Shown here piece by piece: positions 33,019 through 37,504 of a DNA stretch of 64,000 nucleotides. Numbering within the stretch: position 1 is the first letter of the stretch; the number at the start of each line of letters is the position of its first letter. Made by a program: the position numbers and the translations under genes. The notes beneath the pieces were generated by a model. The model worked only from the letters and a program-made list of their open reading frames with translations, searched no databases and was not told the DNA's origin. The stretch is from NCBI RefSeq assembly GCF_020148005.1, contig NZ_JAGXFD010000001.1, positions 2,197,739-2,261,738 on the forward strand, read 5' to 3'. This stretch comes from Modicisalibacter tunisiensis. Its GTDB lineage: Bacteria > Pseudomonadota > Gammaproteobacteria > Pseudomonadales > Halomonadaceae.

Positions 33019-33788
33019 GCGAGTTCGTGGTGGTGATTCCGGCGCGCTACGCGGCCAGCCGCCTGCCGGGCAAGCCGCTGGCCGACATCGCCGGCGTGCC
33101 GATGGTGGTGCGTGTCTGGCAGCGCGCCTGTCTCAGCGGTGCCGCCCGCGTGGTGGTGGCCAGCGACGATGCGCGCGTCTGCCGGGCGGTGGAAGCCGCC
33201 GGCGGCGAGGCGCTGATGACCCGCGACGACCACCCCTCGGGGACCGATCGGCTGGCCGAGGTGGCGCAGGCGCTCGCGCTGCCCGCCGAGACCATCGTGG
33301 TCAACGTCCAGGGGGACGAGCCGCTGCTGCCGCCGGCGTCGATCGCCCAGGTGGCCGCGCGGCTGGCCGACGACCCCGAGGCCTCGATCGCCACGCTGGC
33401 GGCCCCGATCAGCGACGTCGAGACCCTGCTCAACCCCAACGCCGTCAAGGTGGTGCGCGACGTGCGCGGCCGGGCGCTGTACTTCTCGCGGGCGCCGATC
33501 CCCTGGGACCGGGCGCACTTCAGCGAGCGCCCGCAGGCGCTCGCCACCGATGCCTGGCTGCGGCATATCGGCCTGTATGCCTATCGGGCGGGCTTTCTCG
33601 CCGACTTCGTCAACTGGCTGCCCAGCCCGCTCGAGCAGCTCGAGCAGCTCGAGCAGCTGCGTGCCCTGCATCACGGCCATCACATCCAGGTGGCGCTGGC
33701 CCGCGACGTGCATCCCGCCGGGGTGGACAGCGCCGAGGATCTGGAGCGGGTGCGCCGTCAGATCGTCGAACAGGAGGGAGCCTCATGA
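33015..33788 (+). CDS. kdsB: 3-deoxy-manno-octulosonate cytidylyltransferase
   Basis: A 257-residue enzyme that activates Kdo with CTP to CMP-Kdo for LPS inner core. N-terminal motif [17 protein letters not shown] binds the nucleotide; [13 protein letters not shown] and IPWDR are family marks. A slippage-prone run of three LEQ codon triplets lies at 33630-33656. ATGA overlap with ycaR and TGATG overlap with the next gene. Confidence 0.95.
33630..33656 (+). repeat. Three copies of a 9-base repeat inside kdsB
   Basis: CTCGAGCAG occurs three times in tandem and in frame, giving LEQLEQLEQ before LRALHHG. Family members usually have a related but non-repetitive E/L/Q stretch here, so one or two units may be a local expansion. 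Length changes would keep the frame. Confidence 0.75.
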
Positions 33789-35661: not shown

Positions 35662-36753
35662 TCAGACGTTGAAGCGGAAGTGGATGACATCGCCATCGGC
35701 GACGATGTAATCCTTGCCTTCCAGTCGCCACTTGCCGGCTTCCTTGGCGCCGGACTCGCCACCCAGCGTGACGAAGTCGTCGTAGGCGACCACTTCGGCG
35801 CGGATGAAGCCCTTCTCGAAGTCGGTGTGGATGACGCCAGCGGCCTGCGGGGCGGTGGCGCCGACCTTGACCGTCCAGGCGCGGACTTCCTTGACGCCCG
35901 CGGTGAAGTAGGTCTGCAGGCCGAGAAGGTGGTAGCCGGCACGAATCACCCGGTCGAGTCCCGGCTCCTCCATGCCCATCTCGTCGAGGAACATCGCCCG
36001 CTCCTCGTCCTCCAGCTCGGCGATCTCGGCTTCCAGTTGGTTGCAGACCGGCACCACCACGGCGCCTTCCTCGGCGGCGATCTCGTGGACCGTGTCGAGG
36101 TGCGGGTTGTTCTCGAAGCCGTCCTCGTTGACGTTGGCGATGTACATGGTCGGCTTGAGCGTCAGGAAGCCGTAGCTCTTGAGCTGGCGCTTCTCGTCGT
36201 CGGACAGGTCGAAGCTGCGCAGCGGCAGGCCCTCGGCCAGGTGCGGCTGGATGCGCTCGAGAATCGCCTTGGTGGCGATCGCCTCCTTGTCGCCGCCCTT
36301 GACCACCCGGATCAGGCGCTGGATGGCGCGCTCGACGCTGTCCAGGTCGGCCAGCGCCAGTTCCAGGTTGATGGTCTCGATGTCGGCGCGCGGATCGACC
36401 TGGTTGGCCACGTGGATGACGTTGTCGTTGTCGAAGCAGCGCACCACGTGGGCGATGGCATCGGTCTCGCGGATGTTGGCGAGGAACTGGTTGCCCAGGC
36501 CCTCGCCCTTGGAGGCGCCCGCCACCAGCCCGGCGATGTCGACGAACTCCATGGTGGTGGGCACGACCTTCTCGGGCTTGACGATCTCGGCGAGCTTGTC
36601 GAGCCGCGGGTCGGGCATCGGCACGATGCCGGTATTGGGCTCGATGGTGCAGAAGGGGAAGTTCTCGGCGTCGATGCCGGACTTGGTGAGCGCATTGAAG
36701 AGCGTGGACTTGCCGACGTTGGGCAAGCCGACGATGCCGCAGTTGAATCCCAT
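35662..36753 (-). CDS. ychF: Ribosome-associated ATPase YchF (OLA1 family)
   Basis: A 363-residue P-loop protein of the Obg superfamily that hydrolyses ATP rather than GTP and affects stress responses. G1 motif GLPNVGKST (9-17), switch region near [19 protein letters not shown], and the altered specificity motif NVNEDGF in place of NKxD, typical of YchF. A TGS domain closes the protein (GWRV-type segment [15 protein letters not shown]...[14 protein letters not shown]). Length equals E. coli YchF. The pth gene is 166 bases upstream, separated by the 7-base tandem repeat. Confidence 0.96.
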
Positions 36754-36834
36754 GGGTGTTCCTGACGATGAGAAGAGCGAGTGAACGAATGGCGGGCATT
36801 CTACGGGACACCGCGGGCGGGGGCCATACTCTCA

Positions 36835-36925
36835 GCTACGGGCTACGGGCTACGGGCTACGGGCTACGGGCTACGGGCTACGGGCTACGGGCTACGGGCT
36901 ACGGGCTACGGGCTACGGGCTACGG
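36835..36925. repeat. Heptanucleotide tandem repeat, 13 perfect copies
   Basis: GCTACGG is repeated 13 times without a mismatch across 91 bases between the start of ychF and the end of pth. The last copy includes the pth stop codon (TAG on the minus strand). A unit of seven changes the frame with every copy gained or lost, but here it lies at or beyond a stop, so the coding effect should be small; leader length of ychF mRNA would change. Such arrays arise by slippage and often vary between strains. Confidence 0.95.
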
Positions 36926-37504
36926 CGTGAAACTGTGCAGCCGGTTCATCGCCCGGGCCCAGTCGCCGGCGAGGGCGTCGGGCAGGGTGGCGAGGCATTC
37001 GTCGAGGGCGGCGTCGATGGCCTGACGCTCGGCCTTGCCGGGGCGACCCAGCACGTAGTTGGTGACCTGCCTGGCGTTGCCGGGGTGGCCGATGCCGATG
37101 CGCAGGCGGTGGAAGTCCTTGCGGTTGCCCAGCGCGCTGATGGTATCGCGCAGGCCGTTGTGGCCGCCGTGACCGCCGCCGGTCTTGTAGCGGGCGGTGC
37201 CGGGGGCGATGTCGAGCTCGTCGTGGGCGACGAGCAGTTCATCGGGGGAGAGCTTGAAGAACTGGCAGAGCGCGGCGACAGCGGCGCCGCTGCGATTCAT
37301 GAAGGTGGTCGGGTTGAGCAGATGCACATCCCGACCGGCGAAGTGGACCTTGGCGTACTGGCCGAGGAACTTCTTCTCCATGCGCAGCGGCGCGTGGCTG
37401 TCGCGCGCGATGGCTTCCACCAGCCAGGCGCCCGCATTGTGACGGGTGTCGGCGTACTCGGGGCCGGGGTTGCCCAGGCCGATGATCGCTTTCACTTGAC
37501 TCAT
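36920..37504 (-). CDS. pth: Peptidyl-tRNA hydrolase
   Basis: A 194-residue enzyme that frees tRNA from prematurely released peptidyl-tRNA. The catalytic His 22 is in YADTRHNAGAW; FMNRSGAAVAAL, VAHDELDIAPG and GGHGGHNGLRD are the other conserved motifs. Length is typical. The stop codon lies inside the last unit of the heptamer array. Follows rplY by 42 bases, as in other gammaproteobacteria. Confidence 0.95.
   Translation of the reverse strand: MSQVKAIIGLGNPGPEYADTRHNAGAWLVEAIARDSHAPLRMEKKFLGQYAKVHFAGRDVHLLNPTTFMNRSGAAVAALCQFFKLSPDELLVAHDELDIAPGTARYKTGGGHGGHNGLRDTISALGNRKDFHRLRIGIGHPGNARQVTNYVLGRPGKAERQAIDAALDECLATLPDALAGDWARAMNRLHSFTP

Follow-up and report, generated by a model that had tools for sequence, protein, structure and literature searches.

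A thirteen-unit heptanucleotide array at the pth stop codon of Modicisalibacter tunisiensis and a dispersed family of RGCY-core repeats

Thirteen perfect copies of a 7-base unit lie between pth and ychF in a 64,000-nucleotide stretch of the Modicisalibacter tunisiensis genome (the window). Here, we describe this array as one of a family of dispersed intergenic heptamer arrays that have an RGCY core, often in the form RGCTNCG. We consider it reasonably probable, at about 0.65, that the array is a heptanucleotide repeat grown by slippage, a member of this RGCY family, that fills tolerated space between the pth stop codon and a promoter of ychF. Replication slippage and exchange between units would make the array grow and keep its units uniform, within limits set by selection. 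The array would thus occupy a change-tolerant stretch, from the pth stop, now provided by the first unit, to just before the likely ychF promoter, and in this lineage it would have taken the place of an inverted-heptamer hairpin found in relatives. We infer slippage as the motor of array growth.

The array and its two neighbouring genes

The features of the locus are as follows.

36835–36925, minus strand: heptamer array of 13 perfect units, GCTACGG on the plus strand and CCGTAGC in the direction of pth and ychF
36920–37504, minus strand: pth, peptidyl-tRNA hydrolase (TIGR00447, above the NCBIfam cut-off)
36920–36922, minus strand: pth stop codon TAG, within the first repeat unit (36919–36925)
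35662–36753, minus strand: ychF (TIGR00092, above the NCBIfam cut-off)
36760–36763, minus strand: AGGA, candidate ychF ribosome-binding site, read from the sequence
36798–36803, minus strand: TAGAAT, candidate −10 hexamer of a ychF promoter, 50 nt before the ATG, proposed from conservation in relatives
36821–36826, minus strand: TGGCCC, weak candidate −35, 17 nt before TAGAAT, proposed by eye
36840–36919, plus strand: quadruplex-type motif in the array, 12 GGG runs with 4-nt loops, recognised by pattern only

Tandem Repeats Finder confirms the thirteen perfect copies from which this work started, with period 7, 13.0 copies and 100% matches at 36835–36925 and a score of 182, the highest of 26 tandem-repeat rows in the window. 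Three exact units, (GCTACGG)3, are found at a single site in the whole 3.55 Mb genome. Exact period-7 arrays of at least three copies number five in 464 kb of real genome sequence and zero in one Markov-1 simulation of 464 kb. An assembly error is excluded, as the separately assembled genome of Halomonadaceae bacterium T82-2 has an array at the same place. A plus-strand open reading frame (36756–37025) crosses the array antisense to the end of pth and would encode LRATGYG repeats; it is most likely a product of chance. Elsewhere in the window, inside kdsB (33629–33658), a perfect 9-base repeat of 3.3 copies encodes a 10-letter protein stretch.

The array does reach the pth stop codon, as had been noticed, and TAG is made of letters of the first unit: the first CCGTAGC begins with the last codon and stop of pth (CCG TAG), which take up six of its seven bases. 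The original prediction went on to propose that loss or gain of copies can alter the end of pth, which is not borne out. After removal or addition of whole units CCG TAG still adjoins ...TTC ACG, given at least one unit left, and the C-terminus of Pth stays constant because whichever unit comes first provides CCG TAG. Judged from the sequence, the end of Pth would be affected only if the entire array were lost. The accompanying statement that the array forms most of the ychF leader does not hold either. It contributes 85 nt (51%) of the 166-nt spacer between the genes (36754–36919), ends 81 nt from the ychF start, and TAGAAT sits between it and ychF.

What speaks for TAGAAT as a promoter element? 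The start of ychF is readable in 79 of the 80 relatives. Of these, 51 have TAGAAT within 75 nt upstream of ychF, and the number rises to 56 when TAAAAT and TAAGAT are added, against a background of 152 in 5839 ordinary 75-nt windows. The hexamer lies 50 nt from the ATG in 24 of these 56 relatives and 50–51 nt from it in 32; the remaining 23 of the 79 have no hexamer of this type near ychF. A consensus scan gave no sigma-70 match near ychF, and TGGCCC-N17-TAGAAT was also seen by eye at two Salinicola loci (L063 and L110). We infer that TAGAAT is probably the −10 element of ychF. The array, which ends about 32 nt upstream of TAGAAT and adjoins the −35 region, would then lie upstream of the likely promoter, beyond its predicted −10/−35 core and outside the leader, and would likely enter ychF mRNA only on read-through from pth. 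Unit changes at this position shift no reading frame.

In the available text of work on Escherichia coli, ychF is co-transcribed with pth, the ychF transcript is reported to stabilise pth mRNA, and the ychF promoter has already been used in fusions (PMC8138138). Given both co-transcription and a ychF promoter in E. coli, the array may still be part of a read-through transcript. Neither neighbouring protein is probably changed by the array, and a strong effect of it on Pth or YchF seems unlikely. In practical terms, whole-unit changes in copy number should leave Pth, and likely the ychF leader, unaltered.

The pth–ychF spacer in sister and related genomes

T82-2 is the nearest genome, with 96.3% DNA identity over 5.6 kb. 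Its array lies between the same two borders and has 14 units, of which unit 6 is a CCGTACC variant, and the 81 nt from array to ychF are identical in the two genomes. Because both share the array, it must be older than their split. From the divergence of the flanks, 91 nt should have collected 3.4 differences; at most one would be seen with P = 0.15, so that a very recent event is not strongly indicated by the perfection of the array. The recent expansion that had been deduced from perfect identity is thereby weakened, the more so as the array predates the split. The slippage signal stands, in that the array is slippage-prone and copy number varies between related genomes, with 13 and 14 units in the two species compared.

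In the wider set, exact heptamer arrays of at least three units are present in the pth–ychF spacer of 11 of 80 relatives, mostly with other units, and 69 have none. The unit is CCGTAGC in T82-2, GCTCGTA in L050 and L052, and CGTAAGC in L057; the others are AGACGGA, AGCTGGA (two relatives), AGCTCGG with AGCTCGA, AGCTCGT (two relatives) and TCGTTCG. A ychF tree built quickly from 83 rows, a weak tree with 12 of 78 inner branches starred and L057 left out, requires at least nine changes to account for the presence of arrays. Among six congeners compared, only this genome and T82-2 have the array. Contig NZ_CANLFS010000008.1, the source of L057, stops within its CGTAAGC array after 11 copies; heptamer arrays may break assemblies. 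In Halomonas sp. M20 (L044), the same spacer has, directly after the pth stop, 7 near-perfect copies of the 12-base unit TTCAAGGGCTAG.

Might the array be a phase-variation switch, set immediately upstream of the ychF promoter, whose copy number adjusts the transcription of ychF? The place of the array beside the −35 region and the one-unit difference between the sister genomes would fit such a switch. However, the 81 nt to ychF are the same in both genomes, so a copy change only moves DNA further upstream, the 69 relatives without an exact array manage without one, and ychF and pth are housekeeping genes. We therefore regard a switch as very unlikely.

The spacers of other relatives have a different organisation. 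In the four remaining congeners (G019, G083, G098 and G038) two inverted arms are made up of degenerate heptamers, and in an alignment of nine arm-bearing spacers, picked for having degenerate arms, GC or GCTT is invariant every 7 nt and the bases between are variable. Eight of these nine were folded and are more stable than shuffles, with z from −3.0 to −7.0, and L176 reaches z −2.3. Overall 14 loci were folded, selected because they have arms or arrays, and in 12 of them z lies between −1.9 and −9.1. On the transcript side the window and T82-2 fold less stably than shuffles (z +2.6 and +2.5), and no inverted repeat was found within the array. Three relatives whose perfect arrays consist of AGCT units nevertheless fold well (L085, z −4.2; L089, z −9.1; L099, z −1.9), so that loss of structure depends on the unit and not on being an array. 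In the 69 spacers without a perfect array there are 35 pairs of RGCY cores at a distance of 7 nt, where 4.2 would be expected. By the same spacing test the RCGY core is in excess at 14 nt (27 against 6.2) and not at 7 nt.

These observations invite a functional reading, in which RGCY heptamers every 7 nt serve at 3′ ends as binding sites or RNA-structure modules that influence the next promoter, the stability of the mRNA or transcription termination, with the array as their homogenised form. The invariant columns, the stable folds of the arm-bearing spacers, the excess of RGCY pairs and the reported stabilisation of pth mRNA in E. coli all point in this direction. However, the window and T82-2 fold worse than shuffles, chains of at least three in-phase cores are found in only 6 of the 69 spacers, and covariation is of no help, as 3 of 24 hairpin pairs changed on both sides (term +1.69) and thus add no support. 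A consensus scan found no intrinsic terminator in 36700–37000 of the window or in L059, and the orientation of arrays relative to the gene is not constant. On balance a 3′-end element of this kind appears unlikely, without being negligible. Somewhat easier to accept, and still doubtful, is a combined reading in which Halomonadaceae have a gene-end element of RGCY cores exactly 7 nt apart, which in some species forms a hairpin of two inverted degenerate arms behind a stop codon, and whose single units repeatedly expand into perfect arrays and replace the hairpin. Function or the copying mechanism would keep the core across the family, and elements would pass in turn through structure, expansion and decay, with the array at one of these stages.

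Returning to a slippage-grown array in tolerated space, the relatives form a natural series: in one conserved spacer, arrays of different units came and went, and empty, degenerate and perfect states occur in close relatives. With such a series, both the mechanism of growth and whatever effect there is on gene ends become open to test. If the hairpin of relatives limits read-through, more co-transcription of pth and ychF would be expected in this lineage.

A dispersed family and its placement near genes

How far does the family extend? The genome of M. tunisiensis itself has nine RGCT arrays (at least four cores) at seven places, with the units GGCTGCG, GGCTTCG, GGCTCGT, GGCTTAC and GGCTACG, and GGCTTCG is found at four places. 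Of 151 Halomonadaceae genomes, 80 have RGCT arrays of five cores. In a class-wide draw 22 of 274 genomes have them; two of those 22 are Halomonadaceae, which leaves 20 of 272 others. The enrichment of the family over the class has a Fisher P of about 1e-25, with relatedness not corrected for. A control with the pattern read backwards is confounded, since units of the AGCTCGA type match it. The backwards control alone is matched by 4 of 274 genomes of the class sample, where 22 match the pattern, and by 2 of 151 of the family (G049 and G137), where 80 do. G019 and G083 match the window array, with 81–100% identity, at 11 and 9 other places, respectively.

The period of 7 stands out among approximate repeats. 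In 464 kb of the own genome there are four of period 7 and 0, 1, 0 and 0 of periods 5, 8, 10 and 11; in 400 kb of G083 the count is seven against 0, 0, 0 and 1, and at 80 pth loci 15 against 0, 2, 0 and 0. Periods 9, 12 and 15 (5, 6 and 6 in the own genome) are as frequent as period 7, and presumably stem from codons.

The core was not preset, and RGCY is nevertheless part of the unit in 13 of the 15 arrays at the 80 pth loci, where 17% is expected. The other palindromic core types tried show no excess at these loci save AGCT, itself part of RGCY. Because 13 of these 15 arrays share one spacer of related species, we also counted once per inferred change, which gives 7 of 9 (P = 1e-4). Grid samples of two genomes, with the window's own array left out, give 7 of 10 (P = 3e-4). 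Five arrays lack RGCY, two at the pth–ychF spacer (L066 and L110) and three in the grids (L139, L146 and L203). Within arrays the core G varied least when decay was counted by phase (chi-square P = 0.01), a result contaminated by array edges and pattern-fetched loci; in the G100 sample, 8 of 20 stretches had been picked on arrays.

With respect to genes, called here with a home-made simple codon-model caller, the 61 exact heptamer arrays over the examined loci form 50 blocks, and the overlap of an array with a called gene is 12 nt at most. When the pth set is left aside, 35 blocks have both neighbours, and 12 of them cover a stop codon or come within 2 nt of one, where random placement predicts 1.35; with an orthologous pair counted once the figure is 11 of 34, and the window array is among them. 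None of the 35 blocks lies between divergent genes, as compared with 20.5% of sampled spacers of at least 60 nt, and none of 33 blocks next to a start codon touches it. In tandem spacers 22 of 33 blocks are nearer the stop than the start, but without the pth set only 12 of 23 are. Nearness to the stop is thus not general, whereas touching it is.

Turnover is not confined to the pth–ychF spacer. Orthologous sites in congeners are empty, carry a remnant, repeat the same units a different number of times, or are built of other units altogether. At the L029 site the own genome has (GGCTTCG)10 and (GGCTCGT)13, G083 has the same two units in fewer copies, and T82-2 is near-empty; at the L180 site G083 retains a single unit. 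At two unlinked places of the own genome, L026 (193118–193235) and L029 (1568696–1568863), (GGCTTCG)n is followed by a short spacer and (GGCTCGT)n, in the same order and beside a stop codon. In L208, L207 and L205, which are orthologues of the L012 site, and at pth of G019 (L174), a short inverted repeat includes the last codons and the stop, and its downstream arm matches the end of that same gene. It is followed by RGCY heptamers in L207, L205 and L174 and by a GGAAGA-type stretch in L208.

Local slippage from chance seeds does not explain why like units are found at unlinked loci and in many genera, and slippage does not explain the RGCY core. Either copying between loci, or an aid to expansion from the self-complementary RGCY, or function could account for the like units. 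Like units at many unlinked loci could also come from a mobile element that targets stop codons and carries ready-made arrays from place to place, and the 12 of 35 blocks at a stop codon and the repeated two-array order at L026 and L029 would suit it. Yet inspection by eye of L178–L181, L183 and the window showed no sequence in common beyond the arrays, and the single-unit remnant that G083 has at the L180 site could equally well be a product of decay or a seed. Such an element seems highly improbable to us.

Could a G-quadruplex be the common denominator? On the strand opposite pth and ychF it might influence replication or transcription. Such an action has been proposed for GGGNATC repeats, whose geometry the 12 GGG runs and 4-nt loops of the plus strand reproduce. 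By pattern alone the window has nine quadruplex-type motifs on the plus strand and one on the minus strand, and six of the eight exact arrays read at named loci of the own genome have GGG or CCC in the unit. However, an RNA energy model that allows quadruplexes prefers an ordinary hairpin on the plus strand, and at relatives' pth–ychF spacers only T82-2 has a GGG or CCC unit. Across the exact arrays only 24 of 61 have one, so quadruplex formation cannot be a common feature of the family. A quadruplex may be relevant at the window locus; as an explanation of the array we rate it the most improbable of those considered. A slippage-grown member of the RGCY family in tolerated space remains our preferred reading.

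Comparison with known repeat systems

The STRR repeats of cyanobacteria are short tandemly repeated heptanucleotides, with several unit types per genome. The arrays described here resemble them in having tandem 7-nt units, above chance, at several unlinked intergenic loci, and differ in belonging to another phylum. Phase-variable simple sequence repeats have units of 1–5 nt and lie near genes. Our array is likewise a perfect tandem array near genes in which slippage is expected; unlike them it causes no frame shift, does not lie between the predicted −10 and −35, and neighbours housekeeping genes. A Calothrix heptanucleotide case and phase-variable simple sequence repeats are both mentioned in the accessible part of a study of G-rich heptamers (Rehm et al, 2015; PMC4692102).

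That study describes GGGNATC heptamers, the G-rich repeats of Xanthomonas and Nostoc, and its available text offers the closest parallels. Like GGGNATC, the present repeats have a period of 7, many dispersed intergenic arrays and varying copy number. Downstream GGGNATC arrays mostly lie at most 50 nt from the stop, with some overlapping the stop and some forming inverted pairs, and the same is seen here. Read as GGGCTAC, the window unit has three G and a four-base loop, as GGGNATC does (PMC4692102). The unit itself is a different one, however, and the wider family is set by RGCY, with 37 of 61 exact arrays free of GGG or CCC. According to that paper, GGGNATC was met in Xanthomonas and not in other gamma-proteobacteria, and 90% of its arrays lie between the same genes in two species, whereas RGCY sites turn over between close species. 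Among bacterial tandem repeats heptamers are over-represented, and for this the paper offers no more than a hypothesis, the length of DNA that contacts the polymerase (PMC4692102).

The TAACTGA repeats of Beggiatoaceae, discussed as possible regulator sites, are dispersed intergenic direct repeats of a heptamer as well (MacGregor, 2015; PMC4679880). As far as they are described there, they have one fixed unit and mostly lie just upstream of starts, in contrast to the several related units found here, often at stops. With another unit, and 81 nt from the ychF start, the window array is not of the TAACTGA type.

In the open-licence literature searched, we found no description of an RGCY heptamer family. 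In conclusion, the array between pth and ychF is of a known kind, heptamer repeats near stop codons that in some cases form inverted pairs, and it is the RGCY core that is different.
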